DNA from: Phycisphaerae bacterium
GTDB taxonomy: Bacteria; Planctomycetota; Phycisphaerae; UBA1845; PWPN01
DNA: 55,126 nt
Direction of reading: 5' to 3'
Assembly (NCBI GenBank): GCA_012729395.1
Contig: JAAYDF010000245.1
Coordinates: 1-55,126, forward strand
Shown here in pieces: positions 3,711-41,937 of the stretch. How positions within the stretch are numbered: the first letter of the stretch is position 1; every line of letters begins with the position of its first letter. The notes beneath the pieces are model-generated. The model did not search any database. It was not told the origin of the DNA and saw only the letters and a list, made by a program, of their open reading frames with translations. A program made the translations under genes and the position numbers.

Positions 3711-4700
3711 TCATAGCACTTGCGGGTCGGCCACATACCGCGGCGACTTGCCAGCCAACACCGCGATCACATCATCTACGACATCGTTCATGGCCGCCAG
3801 TCCCTCTCGCGAACGGGACGCGACATGCGGCGAGAGAACGCAATTCGGGGCACTGAGCAGTGGGTGGTCCGGCGGCGGCGGTTCGGGGTCGAAGACATCA
3901 ATCGCCGCTCCGGCCAGCCGGCCTTCCTTGAGGGCGTCGGCCAGCGGGGCCGCCTGCACCACCGGCCCACGCGAGGTGTTCACCAGATAAGACCCACGTT
4001 TGAAGTGGGCCAGGGCCTCGGTACCCACCATCCCCCGCGTCAGCGAGGTCAGCGGCACATGCAGCGAAATTACGTCCGCCTCGGCATAGACCGCCTCCGC
4101 CGACGCCAGTGCCTGGGCCGCGAACGGCAGGTACCCAATCTCCCGAATGTCGTAATAGACAACCCGCATGCCCAAGCCGTCGTGCATTCGCTTGCTCACC
4201 GCTTGGCCGATGCGACCCATGCCGATGATGCCCAGCGTCTGGTGCTGCAACTCAGGTGTGAGGCCGCCCTCGGCCCGCAACGACGCGAACTCGCCTTGCC
4301 TTACCCGCTGGTCGAAGAGCGCGATCCGCCGTTGCACCGCCACGATCAGCCCGACCGTCAGCTCCGCCACGGCAAAGGTGCAGGCCGCCGGCGTATGGAC
4401 GACAGGGATGCCCGCCTCGGCCGCCGCCCGCAGATCGATGTTGTCCACCCCGACGCCCGCCCGGCCGATGACCTTGAGTCGCCCGCCCGCTCGACCCGCG
4501 GCAATCACCGACGCGGTCACCTTCGAGTACGTCCGCACCACCAAGGCGTCCGCCCTGCGCACCGCGTCCGTCAGGGCCGCTTCGCCGCAGGTATCCAGCA
4601 CCGCCACCTGCCCCGCCGCTTCGAGCCGCGTCATGGCCGACTCGCTCAGCCGCTCCGCCACCACGATCACCGGTTGCGCCTCGTTTGCCATGCCCGGCAT
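3711..4700 (-). CDS. D-isomer-specific 2-hydroxyacid dehydrogenase (phosphoglycerate dehydrogenase-like)
   Basis: About 329 residues, starting at MPGMANE (4700) or MANE (4691); a longer frame to 4733 has no better signal. It has the two-domain 2-hydroxyacid dehydrogenase layout, with NAD-binding GIIGMGRIGQ in the middle, catalytic Arg in VNTSRGPVV, Glu in FDPEPPP and His in LSPHVAS. Family members reduce 2-keto acids or oxidise 2-hydroxy acids with NAD. The single-domain length, with no ACT or ASB regulatory domain, makes a dedicated SerA less certain and hydroxypyruvate/glyoxylate reductase equally possible. It stands alone, about 240 bases downstream of a repeat-bearing region on its own strand. 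Confidence 0.88.
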   Translation of the reverse strand: MPGMANEAQPVIVVAERLSESAMTRLEAAGQVAVLDTCGEAALTDAVRRADALVVRTYSKVTASVIAAGRAGGRLKVIGRAGVGVDNIDLRAAAEAGIPVVHTPAACTFAVAELTVGLIVAVQRRIALFDQRVRQGEFASLRAEGGLTPELQHQTLGIIGMGRIGQAVSKRMHDGLGMRVVYYDIREIGYLPFAAQALASAEAVYAEADVISLHVPLTSLTRGMVGTEALAHFKRGSYLVNTSRGPVVQAAPLADALKEGRLAGAAIDVFDPEPPPPDHPLLSAPNCVLSPHVASRSREGLAAMNDVVDDVIAVLAGKSPRYVADPQVL

Positions 4701-4737
4701 TATGCAAACACCGCTCACCCCGCACAAGCACAAAAAG

Positions 4738-4837
4738 GGTGTCAGGATGATTTTCTGGGGGGCAAAAACGCCGCTCAGATGCTCTAAGTTAAAACCGGCG
4801 ACCGCGTTGCAGACCCCGCAAAAATCATCCTGACACC
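4738..4837. repeat. Inverted-repeat element with GGTGTCAGGATGATTTT ends
   Basis: The 17 bases GGTGTCAGGATGATTTT at 4738-4754 recur in exact inverted form at 4821-4837, enclosing 66 bases. The same sequence occurs at 55072-55088. The right arm starts four bases after the stop codon of the ankyrin gene on the minus strand. GGTGTCAGGA-type palindromes are, from general knowledge, often seen near RAYT (IS200-like, REP-associated) transposases; none is encoded in this window. It may be a small non-autonomous element or a transcript-end hairpin. Confidence 0.8.
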
Positions 4838-4840
4838 ATT

Positions 4841-5560
4841 TTACTCGACGGCGCCGTAGCTTCGGAGCAGCTCGACGAGCGGGGTGTTACGCAGGTCCTT
4901 GGCGAAGCTGAGGGCGGATTGGTTCTCGTTGTCGCGGACGTTGGCGTCGGCGCCGTGCCGCAGGAGCACCTCGACGATATCCTTCAGGCCGTGGGCGGCG
5001 GCGGCCAGCAGGGGGGTGCGGCCGTGCATATCGAACGAGTCGACCTGCGCGCCGCGGGCGATGAGCAGTTCGACCATGTCCTTGTGGCCGAGGGTGGCCA
5101 CCCAGTGCAGCGGTGTGACGTGGTAGCGATTGCGGACATCCACGTTCGCTCCACGGTCGAGCAGCAGGGCAACGACCTCCGCGGATTTGCCAGCCGCCGC
5201 CCAGTGCAGGGCGGTTGAGCCGTTCGCGTCGCCGGCTTCGATCGGGGTGCCCTCATCCAGCAGAGCTTTGACTCGCTCCACGTCGCCTTCGCGTGCAGCC
5301 AGATGCAGGCTTTCGAGTCCGGCCGTCGTCTCCGGCTGCGTGGCTGACGGCGGTAGGGCGGGTTGCGTCATGGGGGAGGAGGGCGAGGTATCGGGAGCAG
5401 GTACCGTGGACGTCACCCTCGTCGAGCTGCGTTCCTTCGGGTCGGCAGAGGTGGACTCGGACGTTGATTGACCGCGGTCACAGCCCACAAGCACCAGGGC
5501 CGTCGTCAGAGTCAGGCCTATTCGGACCAGCCAAGCACACCTGCACAGATTCTGCGTCAT
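4841..5560 (-). CDS. Ankyrin-repeat lipoprotein
   Basis: The 239-residue protein begins with a lipoprotein signal (hydrophobic stretch and lipobox LVGC with Cys27). A Ser/Thr/Pro-rich linker (about 30-80) follows, then four to five ankyrin repeats (about 84-239) with typical TALHWAA, TPLHWVA and TPLLAAA helices. It is probably anchored to a membrane and presents the ankyrin stack for protein binding; the partner is unknown. The stop codon is followed at once by the GGTGTCAGGATGATTTT inverted repeat. No enzyme domain is present. The gene is monocistronic as far as can be seen. Confidence 0.9.
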   Translation of the reverse strand: MTQNLCRCAWLVRIGLTLTTALVLVGCDRGQSTSESTSADPKERSSTRVTSTVPAPDTSPSSPMTQPALPPSATQPETTAGLESLHLAAREGDVERVKALLDEGTPIEAGDANGSTALHWAAAGKSAEVVALLLDRGANVDVRNRYHVTPLHWVATLGHKDMVELLIARGAQVDSFDMHGRTPLLAAAAHGLKDIVEVLLRHGADANVRDNENQSALSFAKDLRNTPLVELLRSYGAVE

Positions 5561-5680
5561 GCCATATCACTCCTCATCCGGTGATCCAAGGCCGTTCATG
5601 GTACCCCGGCCCCTGTGTACGGCAATACCGGCGCAGAGCTGTGTGTTGCCCCCAGCAGTACCCCCTGGCCGCTATCAGGT

Positions 5681-5710
5681 TTGTAGGCCTTCGCTGGATC
5701 GGGGTATAAT
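5681..5710 (+). promoter_or_regulatory. Possible sigma70-type promoter upstream of prenyl diphosphate synthase
   Basis: A perfect TATAAT at 5705-5710 is preceded by TTGTAG at 5681-5686 with an 18-base spacer. It lies about 220 bases before the chosen start of the isoprenoid gene and would include the palindrome at 5784-5850 in the leader. The -35 box is weak, so this is tentative. Confidence 0.4.
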
Positions 5711-5783
5711 CGAGGGCTTGGCTGCGGGGATGTGGTGCTGGTCTTCCGGCACGGAGGCATCGGCGACCATGGCAGAACCGTAG

Positions 5784-5850
5784 CAGAGCCGCGACCGTCA
5801 GGGAGCGGTTCTGCCCGCGAGAGGACCGCTCCCTTACGGTCGCGGCTCTG
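5784..5850. repeat. Long palindrome (26-bp arms)
   Basis: Arms at 5784-5809 and 5825-5850 are inverted copies with one mismatch, beginning CAGAGCCGCGACCGT, around a 15-base loop. The unit would fold into a very stable hairpin in RNA or single-stranded DNA. Its form is like REP-type elements. It has no T-run, so an intrinsic terminator is unlikely. Confidence 0.85.
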
Positions 5851-5929
5851 TTAGGGCTGCGGGTCTGGCACGGCCTGCATGGGGAGAGTTCCTTTTTCGT
5901 TCGGATCCAGACAGGCGGGCGCAGGCGAT

Positions 5930-6871
5930 ATGGCTTTGACACCGGCAGAGAGCAGCGGGCGCGCGGCGGACGCCGAGAGCCGAGCGGGCGGTGATGACAT
6001 CGCTGGGAAGTTGGCCGCCTGGGGCCGGTCGTTTGAGCCGGTGCTCGACGCTCTCTTGACGCCCGGTCCCGCGGTTCCGACCGTACTGGCGGAGGCCGTG
6101 CGTTACTCGGCCCAGGGCGGAGGTAAGCGGGTCCGGCCGTTCATCGTGACGAGGATCTGTGAGTTGTGCGGCGGCAGTGCGACGGACGCGACGCCGGCGG
6201 CGGCGGCCTTGGAGTGCGTCCACGCGTTTTCGCTGGTGCACGATGACCTGCCGGCGATGGACGACGACGACCTTCGTCGCGGCCGACCGACCTGCCATCG
6301 CGTGTACGGCGAGGCGGTGGCGATTCTGGCGGGGGATGCCTTGCTGGCGTTGGCGTTCGAGATCGCGGCGACACGCATTGCGGACGCGGGCACTGCTCGG
6401 GCGGTTGTCGTGGAGCTGGCCCAGGGGACGGGCTGGGGCGGGATGATCGGTGGTCAGACGACGGATATCGAAAGCGAGGAGCAGCCGACGGATCTGGCCT
6501 TGGTCGAGACCATTCACCGATACAAGACTGCGAGACTGTTGGAGGCGGCGGGTCGATTGGGTGCCCTGTCGGCCCGGGCATCGGCAGCCCAGCTGGCTGC
6601 GGCCGCGAGCTATGGGCATCATTTGGGGCGGGCGTTTCAGATCGCCGACGACCTGTTAGACGTGACCGGCGACGCCGCTCTGCTGGGCAAAGCGGTAGCC
6701 AAGGATGCGGCGGCGGGCAAGCAGACGTACCCGGCCGCGGTGGGGGTGGATGCGAGCCGGCAGGCGGCGTGGGATGCCGCCCGGCAGGCCATTGAGGCCC
6801 TGGCGGACTTCGGGCCGCAGGCCGACGACCTCCGCGCTTTGGCTCGGTACGTCGTCGAACGTAAGAAGTGA
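5930..6871 (+). CDS. ispA: Polyprenyl (farnesyl/geranylgeranyl) diphosphate synthase
   Basis: The 313-residue form starts at ATG 5930; an in-frame ATG at 5879 would add 17 residues. The first aspartate-rich motif DDLPAMDDDD is at 105-114 with RRGRPTCH after it, and the second DDLLD at 240-244. The GGGKRVRP substrate-binding segment is at 63-70. The spacing in the first motif is the DDx4D form of bacterial farnesyl/geranylgeranyl synthases. It condenses IPP with allylic diphosphates. The next gene is DXS, so the pair covers the first step and chain elongation of isoprenoid synthesis. Product chain length is not certain. Confidence 0.93.
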   Translation: MALTPAESSGRAADAESRAGGDDIAGKLAAWGRSFEPVLDALLTPGPAVPTVLAEAVRYSAQGGGKRVRPFIVTRICELCGGSATDATPAAAALECVHAFSLVHDDLPAMDDDDLRRGRPTCHRVYGEAVAILAGDALLALAFEIAATRIADAGTARAVVVELAQGTGWGGMIGGQTTDIESEEQPTDLALVETIHRYKTARLLEAAGRLGALSARASAAQLAAAASYGHHLGRAFQIADDLLDVTGDAALLGKAVAKDAAAGKQTYPAAVGVDASRQAAWDAARQAIEALADFGPQADDLRALARYVVERKK

Positions 6872-6896
6872 ATGCATCCAACCGGCCGACTGCCAA

Positions 6897-6995
6897 CAAC
6901 GAGCCGCGGGCTTCTAGCCCGCGCGGCCATTTGGCGGAGATCGGCGGTCGCCTTGCGCACGAGCACCGCGCGGGCTGTAAGCCTGCGGCTCGTTG
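6897..6995. repeat. Long imperfect palindrome between prenyl synthase and DXS genes
   Basis: The arm at 6897-6926 (CAACGAGCCGCGGGCTT...) pairs with 6966-6995 (...GCCTGCGGCTCGTTG) around a 39-base centre. Each arm also contains its own small palindrome (GCGGGCTTCTAGCCCGC). It fills most of the 182-base gap between two genes of the same pathway. It may be a REP-like element or affect readthrough into dxs. Confidence 0.8.
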
Positions 6996-7053
6996 GAGTT
7001 GCGGTCACGGGTATCCGTGAACCGGTCGGTTTGAGTCAAATGGGAACGTATGC

Positions 7054-9003
7054 ATGAAGTGGTTGAACACCATCCGGCAGCCTGAAGACCTTCGCAAGCT
7101 CTCGATGGAGCAGCTCAACGAGCTGGCCGCCGAGATTCGGCAGCGGATCATCGAGGTCGTCGGCAAGAACGGCGGCCACTTGGCCAGCAACCTCGGGGTG
7201 ACCGAGCTGACCTTGGCGCTGCACTACTGCTTCGATTTCCGTCGCGACCGGCTGCTGTGGGATGTTGGGCACCAGTGCTACCCACATAAACTGCTTAGCG
7301 GGCGGCATGAGCGGTTCGACTCGTTGCGCAAGGCGGGCGGGGTCAGCGGTTTTCCGGAGCCCGCCGAGAGTGAATACGATCTCTTCAAAGTCGGGCATGC
7401 GGGCACGGCCATCGCGACAGCGGTCGGGCTGGCTCGGGGCGATCAAGCCCTTGGCCTGGACCGGCGCATCGTCGCCCTGGTCGGTGACGCGAGCATCGTG
7501 AACGGCCTGTCCTTCGAAGGGCTCAACCAGGCGGGCCTGCTGAACCGGCAGTTCCTCGTGGTGCTCAACGACAACAACTGGGGCATCGCACCCACGCAGG
7601 GGGCCATGGCCGAGTATCTCGCCAAGTTTCGCACCAGTACTCTCTATGAAGAGGTTAAGCAGCGGGCCCAGCGGGTGCTGTCCTGCGTGCCGCTGGTGGG
7701 CAAGCCGGTGGCCGGCGCCATCGGAGCGATCCGCGACGGTATCAAAGCGACGGTTTCGCCGCACCAGATATTCGAGCAAATGGGTTTCATGTGCGTCGGC
7801 CCGGTGCAGGGGCACGACGTGGCCCACCTCATCGAGTTGCTGCAGTTGCTCGGCGGGGTTCAGCACCCGGTCCTGCTGCACGTGCACACCAACAAGGGCC
7901 AGGGTGCGGACTTCGCCACCGCCGAGCCCGGGCGTTTCCACTCGCCGCGTCCGTTCTACATCGAGTCGGGCGGGAAAGTGACCATCCAGAAGGGCTCGGG
8001 CAAGAGTTGGACGGCGGCCTTCTCCGATGCCCTGACCGAGTTGGCCGCGGAGGACGATCGGATCTTCGCCCTGACCGCCGGTATGCCCGACGGCACCGGA
8101 CTGGATAAGTTCGCCAAGGCGTATCCGAAACGGTTCCTCGATGTCGGGATTGCCGAGAGCGCCGCGGTGGACATGGCCGCCGGGATGGCCCGGGCGGGGC
8201 TCAGACCCATTGTGGCCGTGTATTCCACATTCCTCCAGCGGGCATTTGACCAGGTGTTCCAGGAGGCCTCTCTCCAGGGTTTGCCGGTGATCTTCTGTAT
8301 GGACCGGGCGGGTTTGGTGGGCGGCGACGGGGCGGTGCACCATGGCTTCCTCGACGTGAGCTACCTGCGGGGGCTGCCGGGCATGATCCTGGTCGCTCCG
8401 GCCGACGAGCCGGAACTCAAGGCCGCGTTGCGCTTTGCTCTGCGGCAGAACCAGCCGGTGGCCATCCGTTATCCCCGAGCCGACGTGCCCGAGCCGATGG
8501 GCGAAGCTCCGCCGTTCGAGCTGGGGCAGTCGCGGCTCGCGCATCCGGGCCGGGACGTCACCATTCTGGCGTACGGCGCGACCGTCAGTCACGCCCTGGA
8601 TGCCGCCGAACTGCTGGCGACCGACCATGTGTCCGCACAGGTGATCAACGCCCGATTCGCCAAGCCGGTGGACACGCGGATGCTGGCGAACGTGTTGAGC
8701 GCGGGGCATCCGGTGATCACGGTGGAGGACCACTCGCTGGCGGGTGGATTTGGCTCAGCGGTGTTGGAGGCGGCCCAGGAACTGCGGCTGCCGACCGAGC
8801 ATATTCTGCGGCTGGGCATGCCCGTGGATCGGTTCATTCCCCAGGGTACGCGGGCCGGCCAGTTGGCTGAGTGCGGCATTGATGCGGCTGGTATCGCCGC
8901 CGCCGTCCAGCAGGAACTCGAGCAACTGCGGACCGCGCCGGCCAGAGCGGTGGCGGAGCGGAATGTGTCGACGCTGCACGTCTCGCCCACCCCGCCGGAA
9001 TGA
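7054..9003 (+). CDS. dxs: 1-Deoxy-D-xylulose-5-phosphate synthase
   Basis: The 649-residue protein follows DXS from end to end: SNLGVTELTLALHY (46-59), WDVGHQCYPHK (69-79), thiamine-diphosphate region VGDAS (143-147) to NDNN (172-175), and the transketolase second half with YSTFLQRAFDQ (390-400) and DRAGLVGGDGAVHHG (417-431). It joins pyruvate and glyceraldehyde 3-phosphate to make DXP, the entry to the MEP pathway. Two departures from the usual pattern were seen: GDA instead of GDG in the cofactor motif, and IAESAAV (366-372) where most DXS have IAEQHAV. The catalytic Glu (368) and Arg (418) remain. It follows the prenyl synthase gene. Confidence 0.95.
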   Translation: MKWLNTIRQPEDLRKLSMEQLNELAAEIRQRIIEVVGKNGGHLASNLGVTELTLALHYCFDFRRDRLLWDVGHQCYPHKLLSGRHERFDSLRKAGGVSGFPEPAESEYDLFKVGHAGTAIATAVGLARGDQALGLDRRIVALVGDASIVNGLSFEGLNQAGLLNRQFLVVLNDNNWGIAPTQGAMAEYLAKFRTSTLYEEVKQRAQRVLSCVPLVGKPVAGAIGAIRDGIKATVSPHQIFEQMGFMCVGPVQGHDVAHLIELLQLLGGVQHPVLLHVHTNKGQGADFATAEPGRFHSPRPFYIESGGKVTIQKGSGKSWTAAFSDALTELAAEDDRIFALTAGMPDGTGLDKFAKAYPKRFLDVGIAESAAVDMAAGMARAGLRPIVAVYSTFLQRAFDQVFQEASLQGLPVIFCMDRAGLVGGDGAVHHGFLDVSYLRGLPGMILVAPADEPELKAALRFALRQNQPVAIRYPRADVPEPMGEAPPFELGQSRLAHPGRDVTILAYGATVSHALDAAELLATDHVSAQVINARFAKPVDTRMLANVLSAGHPVITVEDHSLAGGFGSAVLEAAQELRLPTEHILRLGMPVDRFIPQGTRAGQLAECGIDAAGIAAAVQQELEQLRTAPARAVAERNVSTLHVSPTPPE

Positions 9004-9027
9004 GCCCCGCCCAAACAGAACCGCGGA

Positions 9028-9074
9028 CCAACGAGCCCGAAGCGCAGGCGCCGGGGTGAGGGAGCGCAAGCGAC
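9028..9074. repeat. Dispersed repeat, copy 2 (partner at 3591-3640)
   Basis: This is the reverse-oriented partner of 3591-3640, starting CCAACGAGCCCGAAGCGC and continuing through GGCGCCGGGG to AAGCGAC. It fills about half of the 102-base gap between dxs and the Tat lipoprotein gene. Confidence 0.7.
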
Positions 9075-9105
9075 AGGGGCACAACACGCACGCGAGGAAC
9101 GGAGC

Positions 9106-10656
9106 ATGAGTCGCAATACCGAGCACAATGGCCAGCATCCCGTATCCCGCCGCCGATTCATGCGCAACGGGTTACTTGCGGGATCGGCCGCGGTTGCCGG
9201 GGTCATCACTGGTTGCAGCCAGCATTCAGACTCGGCAGCACGGGTGGCCAACTCGGGCGGCGGCACTGGTTCGGCCTCCAAAACCTTCGTGGCCAGCGGT
9301 GTCATGCCCCATCTCACCGTCAGTGCCGACCTGCGTGGGCCGCGAAGCGAATGCGGTATCGGCGCACTCATGCCCTGGGCCGGCCGACTGTGGTTGATTA
9401 CCTACGTCGCCCACACCGGAACGACCGGCGGCGGCACCGGGCTCTACTACGTTGACGACGCCCTCGCTTTGCACAAACACCCCGCCTCCGTCGTCGGCAC
9501 CTACGCCAACCGTTTCGTGCACGGACCCTCCGAGCAGATGCTCATCGGCCCGCACGTCATCGACGCCGACAACCACGTACGCACCATCGGCGATCTCGTC
9601 GGCCATCGGCTCACCGCGACCATGACCCACTTGACCGACCCGGAGAACAAAGTCTACATGCTGGGCATGGAGTCACTCCTCTGGGAAGTCGATGTGCGCA
9701 CGCTCGCGGTCAAGCTGCTGTTCACGCTCAACGACAACCTCGCCCTGCCCGCCGGCTACAAGCCGCACTACAAGGGCGGATTCACCACCCGCGACCGCGT
9801 GATCGTCGGCAACAACACTTACCACGAACGCGACGAGGTCGAAGGTGTCTCCACCGGCGGGCGCCTGGCCGAGTGGGACGGCCGAGGCAACTGGCGCATC
9901 CTCGAAGAAACCGCCTTCACCGACATCAACGGTACGCCCATGGGCGACCACGCCAACGCCCTGGCCATCGGCTGGGACCGGGCCTCCGTCCTGCTCAACG
10001 TGCTCACCCGCGGCCGATGGACCCGCTACCGCCTGCCCAAGGCCAGCCGCTGCTACGACCACGCTTGGTACACGGAGTGGCCGCGCATCCGCGAAGTCGA
10101 GACCGAGCGGTTCCTCATGGATGTGCACGGCATGTTCTACGAGCTGCCGCGTCAGGCTTTCGGCGGACACTTCTTCGGCGTCAAGCCCGTCTGCCAGCAC
10201 CTGCGCATGGTGCCGGACTTCTGCACGTGGAAGGGCTTCCTCGTGCTGGCGGGCGATCAGAACTCCGCCGTCGGCGACAATGCGCTGATCGGCGAGCCGC
10301 AGTCCAACCTCTGGTTCGGGGCCACCGACGATCTGTGGCGGTTCGGCAAACCGCAGGGTTGGGGGGGACCGTGGCGCGACACGCCGATCAAGCCGGGCAA
10401 ACCCTCTGATCCGTTCCTGATGACCGGCTTCGAGCACAAGTGCCTGCATCTGGCCCACGACGCCGCCGAGCCGGTCACCTTCACCATCGAGGTGGACTTC
10501 CTGGGCAACGGATCATGGCGAGCGTGCGAGGAGCTGCGGGTCAATGGCGGCCGGGGTTACCGCGCCCACGTTTTCCCCATCGGCTTTTCCGCCCACTGGG
10601 TCCGCCTCACCGCCGACCGCGCCTGCACCGCCACCGCCCAGTTCGTATACACCTGA
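9106..10656 (+). CDS. Tat-exported lipoprotein of unknown function
   Basis: The 516-residue protein starts after a GAGG ribosome site. A twin-arginine motif SRRRFM (14-19) precedes a hydrophobic stretch and lipobox ITGC (Cys37), so export by Tat in folded form and lipid anchoring are likely. The mature part has no motif I can name. It is rich in Trp, Tyr and Gly and contains repeated short strands, which would suit a beta-propeller or other beta-rich fold, but this is inference. The last 70 residues resemble a carbohydrate-binding-type beta-sandwich only loosely. It follows dxs by 102 bases. Confidence 0.8.
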   Translation: MSRNTEHNGQHPVSRRRFMRNGLLAGSAAVAGVITGCSQHSDSAARVANSGGGTGSASKTFVASGVMPHLTVSADLRGPRSECGIGALMPWAGRLWLITYVAHTGTTGGGTGLYYVDDALALHKHPASVVGTYANRFVHGPSEQMLIGPHVIDADNHVRTIGDLVGHRLTATMTHLTDPENKVYMLGMESLLWEVDVRTLAVKLLFTLNDNLALPAGYKPHYKGGFTTRDRVIVGNNTYHERDEVEGVSTGGRLAEWDGRGNWRILEETAFTDINGTPMGDHANALAIGWDRASVLLNVLTRGRWTRYRLPKASRCYDHAWYTEWPRIREVETERFLMDVHGMFYELPRQAFGGHFFGVKPVCQHLRMVPDFCTWKGFLVLAGDQNSAVGDNALIGEPQSNLWFGATDDLWRFGKPQGWGGPWRDTPIKPGKPSDPFLMTGFEHKCLHLAHDAAEPVTFTIEVDFLGNGSWRACEELRVNGGRGYRAHVFPIGFSAHWVRLTADRACTATAQFVYT

Positions 10657-39479: not shown

Positions 39480-39528
39480 CCTCGCTCGTACGTTGCAGTG
39501 CGCCAGGCGGAGGGTATCATGACCGACC

Positions 39529-41937
39529 ATGCCGCTCTCGTGGAATGAGACTCGTTCTCGGGCGATCAGTGTTCCCTTGGCTGGCTTTTCCACGCATCTT
39601 CGCGATGCCTCCTTTGCCGCGGGTCACGAAGCCCGACGGCACGACCCCGAAGACCCTGCCCATGCCCGGGCCGTGGAACTCCTCGGCAACCTCCGCGACC
39701 GGTTGGAAGATGCGGGCTATGGGAATCACGACCTCCAGCGATTCATGGTCCGCATCCTCTTTTGTCTCTTCGCCGACGACACCGGCATCTTCGAGCCTGA
39801 CATCTTCAGGCTGTTCATCCAGAACCGCACCCGCGAGGACGGCTCGGACCTCGGCCCGCAGCTTGCCCGCTTCTTCGGTGTGCTCAACACGCCTCCCGAC
39901 AAACGACAAGCCACGCTGGACGAGGACTTGGCCGCCCTGCCCTACGTCAACGGCGAGCTGTACGCCGAGGCCCTGGCCTTCCCCGAGTTCGACCACGCCA
40001 TGCGGGTTGCGTTGCTGTCGTGCTGCGCCTTCAGGTGGGAGCGGATCAGCCCGGCCATCTTCGGCTCACTGTTCCAGGCGGTCATGTTGCCGCGGCAACG
40101 CCGCCAGATCGGCGCCCATTACACCTCTGAACGCGACATCCTCAAGCTCATCCGCTCGCTGTTCCTCGACGACCTGCGGGCGGAGTTCGAGGCGATCAAA
40201 CACGACAAAAAGAAACTCGGTGACTTCCACCGCAGGCTCGCCCGGCTCAAGTTCCTCGATCCCGCCTGCGGTTGTGGCAACTTCCTGGTCATTACCTATC
40301 GCGAGCTTCGCCGCCTGGAGATGGACGTGCTCCAGGCCCGCTTCGGCAAAGATCTGACCGAAGGCGACATTCGGGCCGAGTGCCGACTGGACGTGTCGCA
40401 ACTTTTCGGCATCGAGATCGAGGAATGGCCCGTCCGCATCGCCGAGGTCGCTCTCTGGCTCATGGACCACCAACTCAACCAGGAACTCTTCGAGCGGTTC
40501 AGCCAGATCCGACCCAGCGTGCCGCTGACCAAGTCCCCGCACATCCACCACGGCAACGCGCTGCGACTGGACTGGAACGACGTCCTGCCCGCCGAAGAGT
40601 GCGCCTACGTCCTGGGCAATCCGCCGTTCGTGGGCGCCAAGTATCAGACCGTCGAGCAACGCGGTGACATGGCTCATGTGGCTGGAGACGTGGAGAACTC
40701 CGGCCTGCTTGACTACGTCACCGGTTGGTACTTCAAAGCCACCGAGTACGCAAAGGCTACTCGCATCCGGGTTGCGTTTGTTTCCACCAACTCGATCACG
40801 CAAGGCGAGCAGGTCGGCGTGCTGTGGAACGAGTTATTCCGCCGGGACACGCGGATTCTCTTCGGCCACCGCACCTTCGCATGGGAGAGTGAGACCCGTG
40901 GTAAGGCTCACGTGCACGTGGTCATCATCGGATGGGGGCTCTTCGACGCGAACAACAAACGCATTTACGATTACGAGACCGACCCGCACAAGGCCGTCGT
41001 CTCGGGCGCAAGGAACATCAGCCCCTACTTGGTTCCAGGGTCAAACGCGGTCATTCTGAACCGCGGCAAGCCGCTGTGCGATGTGCCGGAGATCGGCATC
41101 GGCAACAAGCCCATCGACGATGGCAACTACCTTTTCACGGCGGAGGAGAAGGACGCTTTTGTCGCCAGGGAGCCCGCCTCGCGCAGATTCTTCCGCCCCT
41201 GGTACGGATCCGAGGAGTTTATCAACGGACACCACCGATGGTGTCTCTGGCTCGGCGACTGTCCGCCGGAGAAGCTGCGCCGGATGCGCGAGTGTATGAA
41301 GCGCGTCGAGGCGGTGCGACGATTCCGCGAGAAAAGCAAAAGCGCCCCAACCAGGAACATCTCCAAAACGCCGACGCGCTTTCACGTTGAGAACTTCCCG
41401 AAAGGCAAGTTTCTGGTCATCCCCAAGGTGTCATCGGAGAAAAGGCCCTACATCCCGATTGGATTCATGCGGCCGCCTGCCTTGGCAAGCGACCTCCTCT
41501 TCGTCGTCAAGGATACAACTCTCTACCATTTCGGTGTCCTGACCTCGGCGATGCACACGGCTTGGATGCGGCAGGTGTGCGGTAGGCTCAAGTCCGACTT
41601 TCGATACTCCAGCAAGCTGGTCTATAACAACTACCCTTGGCCGCAAGAGGCCACAGAGAAGCAGAAGGGCCGCGTGGAGAGATGCGCCCAGACGGTGTTG
41701 GACACCCGGGCCAAGCATCCCGCGGCGACCTTGGCGGACCTCTACGATCCGCTGGCCATGCCCGCTAACCTCGCCAAGGCCCATGCCAATCTGGACCGAG
41801 CGGTCGATGCCTGTTACCGCCCCCAACCCTTCACCAGCGAGCGCCAGCGGGTCGAGTACCTCTTTGCCCTCTATGAGAAACTGATCACTCCGCTGACCAT
41901 CGCACCCCCGCGACGAAGCCGGAGACAATCCTCTTGA
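39529..41937 (+). CDS. MmeI-type DNA methyltransferase that lacks the nuclease core
   Basis: The 802-residue protein has MmeI-type helical spacer (FMVRILFCLFADDTG, 72-86), SAM-binding motif I DPACGCGNF (244-252), the N6-adenine motif NPPF (364-367), a target-recognition region (about 500-700) and MmeI C-terminal helices. Its start MPLSWNETRSRA is typical of MmeI_N, but residues 13-45 then run straight into the part that normally ends that domain (PLAGFSTHLRD...FAAGHEARRHDPEDP). The 110-150 residues with the D-(E)xK nuclease sites are missing in frame. It should therefore modify DNA but not cut it. No separate nuclease gene is adjacent. Confidence 0.85.
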   Translation: MPLSWNETRSRAISVPLAGFSTHLRDASFAAGHEARRHDPEDPAHARAVELLGNLRDRLEDAGYGNHDLQRFMVRILFCLFADDTGIFEPDIFRLFIQNRTREDGSDLGPQLARFFGVLNTPPDKRQATLDEDLAALPYVNGELYAEALAFPEFDHAMRVALLSCCAFRWERISPAIFGSLFQAVMLPRQRRQIGAHYTSERDILKLIRSLFLDDLRAEFEAIKHDKKKLGDFHRRLARLKFLDPACGCGNFLVITYRELRRLEMDVLQARFGKDLTEGDIRAECRLDVSQLFGIEIEEWPVRIAEVALWLMDHQLNQELFERFSQIRPSVPLTKSPHIHHGNALRLDWNDVLPAEECAYVLGNPPFVGAKYQTVEQRGDMAHVAGDVENSGLLDYVTGWYFKATEYAKATRIRVAFVSTNSITQGEQVGVLWNELFRRDTRILFGHRTFAWESETRGKAHVHVVIIGWGLFDANNKRIYDYETDPHKAVVSGARNISPYLVPGSNAVILNRGKPLCDVPEIGIGNKPIDDGNYLFTAEEKDAFVAREPASRRFFRPWYGSEEFINGHHRWCLWLGDCPPEKLRRMRECMKRVEAVRRFREKSKSAPTRNISKTPTRFHVENFPKGKFLVIPKVSSEKRPYIPIGFMRPPALASDLLFVVKDTTLYHFGVLTSAMHTAWMRQVCGRLKSDFRYSSKLVYNNYPWPQEATEKQKGRVERCAQTVLDTRAKHPAATLADLYDPLAMPANLAKAHANLDRAVDACYRPQPFTSERQRVEYLFALYEKLITPLTIAPPRRSRRQSS

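Follow-up and report, generated by a model that had tools for sequence, protein, structure and literature searches.

A putative stand-alone adenine methyltransferase probably derived from a type IIL restriction enzyme by in-frame loss of its nuclease

The window considered in this work, i.e., the whole stretch of 55,126 nucleotides analysed (contig JAAYDF010000245.1, assembly GCA_012729395.1, from a Phycisphaerae bacterium), contains a gene whose product resembles MmeI along nearly all of its length and lacks the nuclease core. The question raised by this locus is how the nuclease disappeared, and what the remaining protein may still do. As will be discussed, the most probable answer, and one that we regard as likely, is that the gene encodes a stand-alone m6A methyltransferase that arose from a type IIL enzyme by in-frame deletion of the nuclease, and that would methylate the predicted site NNGGAG without cutting it. 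DnmA and other orphan methyltransferases have already illustrated the principle, of which the gene is a clean example, with a cleaner cause than usual: the passage of a one-chain restriction enzyme to a methyltransferase is caught in one step, and its traces can still be read, as it is mainly the leftover of the nuclease that decays.

The gene and the missing nuclease

The open reading frame, supported by Pfam and by a PDB match, lies on the forward strand (39529..41937, stop included, as are all features below on this strand), starts with ATG and encodes 802 amino acids. An in-frame stop at 39520-39522, two codons 5' of the ATG, limits the open frame to 804 amino acids and rules out a longer N-terminus hidden upstream in the same frame. 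Pfam recovers MmeI_hel, MmeI_Mtase, MmeI_TRD and MmeI_C, all four above cut-off, and has no match N-terminal to residue 67. These correspond to a helical spacer (residues 67-145, 39727..39963), a gamma-class N6-adenine methyltransferase domain (residues 221-480, 40189..40968, also defined by its motifs and the family consensus), a target recognition domain, or TRD (residues 504-706, 41038..41646, delimited with the PDB alignment as well), and a C-terminal helical domain (residues 710-787, 41656..41889). PADLOC assigns the protein to REase_MTase_IIG (1029 bits), and the sole match in the PDB search is MmeI (5hr4, E 1.2e-243), with residues 20-798 aligned to MmeI 137-912. An identity as BREX PglX/BrxX was rejected, the NCBIfam PglX models giving 27 and 16 bits versus cut-offs of 900 and 500, and no BREX genes were found among the ten neighbouring genes scanned.

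Regarding the N-terminus, residues 1-155 of MmeI form a PD-(D/E)xK nuclease domain, in which D70, E80 and K82 are essential for cutting (PMC4833311). In the alignment to MmeI, the part of the nuclease that holds these three residues has no counterpart in the 802-aa protein: the PD-(D/E)xK nuclease with its D..(E)xK residues is absent, and the roughly 121 residues containing it are gone. Measured against the closest relative (923 versus 802 residues), the gene lacks about 121 codons following residues 10-13, an in-frame gap of 363 bp (a multiple of 3). The preliminary description had proposed that the start and a downstream segment were joined after residue 13 with the frame kept, and that the methylase motifs were intact; the alignment bears out the first point, and the second holds as well, with DPACGCGNF at residues 244-252 (40258-40284) and NPPF at residues 364-367 (40618-40629). 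Judged by its sequence, the 802-aa protein is thus a member of the MmeI family by descent, but no type IIL restriction enzyme.

Residues 1-13, MPLSWNETRSRAI (39529..39567), correspond to the beginning of the original MmeI-family nuclease domain, according to the alignment of relatives and the family consensus. Since the first dozen residues agree with this consensus, MPLSWNEIRxxAI, the protein has the family's own start, which indicates an internal deletion and rules out a different start site as its explanation. The alignment with relatives places the joint between residues 10 and 14 (39556..39570), and because RAI (residues 11-13) can be assigned to either flank, its position is uncertain by a few codons. 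Downstream of it, residues 14-40 (39568..39648) are what is left, in decayed form, of the nuclease domain at its C-terminal edge, and are largely predicted to be disordered. The relatives, as distinct from the ancestral sequence, suggest that a CGATC-like stretch may have stood on both sides of the joint, and no claim of microhomology is made from it.

The predicted structure is in line with this picture. The AlphaFold model, built from the protein and 42 viral-contig relatives only, has a mean pLDDT of 86.6, with a body mostly above 90 and residues 1-11 and 24-41 below 50. Foldseek ranks MmeI 5hr4 first (TM 0.87, 48% identity in the structure alignment), followed by CamA (7lt5, TM 0.49), M.BseCI and, more distantly, BpuSI and BrxX. 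The model therefore combines a confidently predicted MmeI-like body, matching DNA-bound MmeI, with a disordered stub. In the crystal of DNA-bound MmeI the nuclease domain is itself disordered (PMC4833311), which means that the body can hold DNA without that domain.

A private deletion and the decay of its leftover

For full-length relatives, the order of the source organism was searched whole (114 genomes), its class and phylum were sampled, and relatives of two genomes with close homologues (G121 and G758) were added. The closest relative, placed as sister by the tree and found in G121 (L005/L056), is 71-72% identical, has 923 amino acids and carries its own nuclease. All 24 relatives aligned residue by residue show the family start, a nuclease with D..(E)HK, and then a segment like F-x-F-(I/L)-x-G. 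With a full-length protein as query, some 34 full-length matches begin at query residue 1-4, whereas the window protein begins at 132, and the same deletion is present in none of them; it was likewise not found among the plasmid records listed, and viral contigs with a relative showed no comparable clean internal deletion. The deletion is accordingly private to this gene, with the nuclease kept in all 24 relatives inspected, and this single occurrence in one lineage, with no sister gene bearing the same deletion, was counted against the preferred explanation.

Another nuclease-less protein was encountered in the course of the search, an 803-aa open frame (G129:C1:2676757-2678532) in which an N-terminal nucleotidyltransferase, AbiEii-like by eye, is fused to an MmeI-type methyltransferase and TRD. 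In this case most of the spacer is also gone, the cause is the fusion to another domain, and the genome has a full-length MmeI copy as well, at a distance of about 24 kb.

A frame is kept by chance in one third of deletions, and for this reason the kept frame carries little weight by itself; stronger evidence that the deletion is real comes from how the later substitutions are distributed. At positions identical in the four nearest relatives, residues 14-40 are changed at 6 of 13, compared with 21 of 362 elsewhere (p = 1e-4), and each of these four relatives has 0-2 changes at the stub positions. When the joint (residues 14-17) is left out and two more relatives are added, residues 18-40 are changed at 5 of 11 conserved positions versus 11 of 310 elsewhere (p = 6e-5), and none of the six relatives has an excess of stub changes. 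As an illustration, FAFIAGYET of the relatives has become ASFAAGHEA. In residues 71-790, the share of conserved positions that are changed (18/340) lies within the span of the relatives (16/338 to 37/359), with the caveat that the boundary at residue 70 was picked after looking, while that at 40 lies near the equivalent of residue 155, where the MmeI domain ends. A codon model with five taxa agrees in direction, in that on the branch of the window gene the nonsynonymous rate is elevated for residues 14-40 (2dlnL 11.3) and not for the body, although synonymous sites are saturated, so that it gives neither an absolute dN/dS nor an age for the deletion. Once the catalytic core is lost, the leftover stub would be expected to be free to change, and a working methyltransferase body would not; the extra changes in the stub are thus evidence for a deletion that appears to be real and not recent.

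These data also bear on two other explanations. The first is an assembly artefact, i.e., that the true gene has its nuclease and that 363 bp were skipped, for example through mixed strain variants, an idea compatible with the fragmentation of the genome assembly into 370 contigs. However, the reading frame is unbroken, the breakpoint regions share, in four relatives, exact matches of 6-7 bp at most, which is too short for a typical k-mer misjoin, and the additional stub changes beside the joint occur in no relative and would not be made by a misjoin. We consider such an artefact very unlikely.

The second explanation is that of a decaying relic, in which restriction was inactivated by the deletion and the rest of the gene drifts neutrally towards loss, with the methyltransferase working or not and of no benefit. 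The single occurrence, the absence of the gene from other members of the family, a few unusual residues at the edge of the spacer (45, 56, 66), and the existence of related loci with frameshifts or stops (G758, G161, G172) all lean this way. At the columns conserved across the family, 11 of 252 are changed in the window protein versus roughly 4 to 9 in near relatives, which would also fit a mild relaxation. Against this stand 802 codons with neither stop nor frameshift, intact catalytic motifs, and changes that cluster in the useless stub rather than in the body, which neutral drift after the deletion would not give. A relic of this type seems unlikely to us, and the preferred reading remains a putative stand-alone methyltransferase. 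Among the related loci, those at G758:C7:189438-192193 and G161:C100:3477-6098 are close relatives that keep the nuclease and are split, frameshifted or gapped, the former into 585 and 447 amino acids.

Genomic setting and known nuclease-less homologues

Between 35.3 and 51.1 kb, ten neighbouring genes were scanned; they serve metabolism, transport or regulation (Radical SAM, pectate-lyase-like, Rce1-like, SSF, GntR, HpcH, GFO/IDH, SDR, DUF1559 and SSF), and neither a helicase nor a nuclease was found among them. No detached nuclease was detected in the organism's own genome: the matches were weak, and the best (E 0.06) falls inside another open frame of 982 amino acids, a distant type IIG-like enzyme (G000:C108:42819-44495), so a nuclease encoded elsewhere was rejected. 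Further type IIG-like open frames occur on other contigs of the same genome. With no nuclease in cis, in the ten neighbouring genes, or detached in the genome, the gene has the profile of an orphan methyltransferase. Its GC content resembles that of the surroundings. It is absent from all 12 other genomes of its family, in which the neighbouring symporter has relatives, so it was probably acquired, or lost elsewhere in the family; the same absence was weighed against the preferred reading, in that it gives no indication of long-term retention in the lineage.

MmeI homologues devoid of a nuclease have already been described (PMC7261158, PMC9973331). One of them is DnmA (YeeA) of Bacillus subtilis, which makes m6A and has been called a restriction-modification relic (PMC7261158, PMC9973331). 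DnmA is similar to the window protein in being an MmeI homologue with the nuclease motif missing, but it keeps as neighbours YeeB (helicase) and YeeC (GIY-YIG), neither of which accompanies the window gene. Moreover, in DnmA-like proteins, such as one of 895 amino acids from an Aeromonas plasmid and a second one (L131), the N-terminal domain is present and degenerate, whereas the window protein lost its nuclease through a private deletion that kept the frame. The plasmid protein belongs to Aeromonas salmonicida pS44-1, in which positions 3725-9762 encode the MmeI-type methyltransferase, a helicase and a GIY-YIG nuclease in the order dnmA-yeeB-yeeC; several Aeromonas plasmids gave match scores equal to this locus. 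The Aeromonas plasmid hits whose N-terminus had no counterpart in the search are of this DnmA-like form, with helicase and GIY-YIG genes.

As nuclease-less MmeI homologues often adjoin helicase and GIY-YIG nuclease genes (PMC7261158, PMC9973331), a fact exemplified by pS44-1, the window gene could in principle be part of a multi-gene system, of the DnmA-YeeB-YeeC or BREX-like kind, whose partner restricts in trans. The neighbours listed above are unrelated to such a system, which rules out a locus of the DnmA-YeeB-YeeC type, and the deletion is internal and private, with a sister that has its own nuclease, unlike the degenerate form of DnmA. We hold such a multi-gene system to be very unlikely. 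The proposal of the preliminary description, that a restriction enzyme was converted to a methyltransferase, has instead gained ground, given that all relatives inspected keep the nuclease, none was found in trans, the stub has decayed, the body is conserved and its predicted fold matches that of DNA-bound MmeI.

CamA of Clostridioides difficile (7lt5) offers a further comparison, being a solitary m6A methyltransferase of similar fold with about 13% identity to the window protein. It is shorter, belongs to another branch of the family, and is not known to stem from a recent deletion that can still be seen.

Predicted target and possible function

The mechanism that we propose would start with an in-frame internal deletion stripping the catalytic PD-(D/E)xK part from a type IIL (MmeI-family) restriction-and-modification enzyme. 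The remaining protein would act as a stand-alone m6A DNA methyltransferase, the TRD of which would bind an asymmetric 6-bp site, with the adenine at position 5 methylated on one strand and no cutting.

The identity of this site can be approached with the TRD determinants of MmeI and their residue-to-base rules (PMC4833311). The specificity residues are I524, K527, S605, H619, V620, K633, D655, L656, K688, D690 and R692, which match, in the same order, MmeI positions 642, 645, 723, 737, 738, 751, 773, 774, 806, 808 and 810. The rules give G:C at position 3 for K633 with D655 (MmeI 751 and 773), at position 4 for L656 with R692 (MmeI 774 and 810), and at position 6 for K688 with D690 (MmeI 806 and 808). 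K527 (MmeI 645) most often goes with C:G at position 2, and S605, H619 and V620 are a weak fit to G:C at position 1. Together they point to NNGGAG, perhaps GCGGAG, as the target, methylated at the A; this is to be read as a rule-based prediction and not as a result. We infer expression, DNA methylation and NNGGAG specificity of the 802-aa protein, and m6A in NNGGAG is a concrete prediction that can be tested. The spacer, the gamma-class m6A methyltransferase, the TRD and the C-terminal domain can be aligned with those of MmeI over their whole length; unlike MmeI, the protein is devoid of the catalytic part of the nuclease, and its predicted NNGGAG differs from the TCCRAC of MmeI.

As to its purpose, the protein may serve in epigenetic control or for protection only, as the preliminary description suggested, or may be a neutral relic. 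It may also be imagined that the enzyme, once rid of its nuclease, came to serve as a resident epigenetic regulator and that its target shifted, the loss of the nuclease removing the cost of the shift for the host; we regard this as doubtful. The sister differs only in the last determinant pair (position 6), which is E-R there and K-D in the window protein, and the target of the sister is accordingly predicted, from the same residues, to have C at position 6, i.e., NNGGAC.
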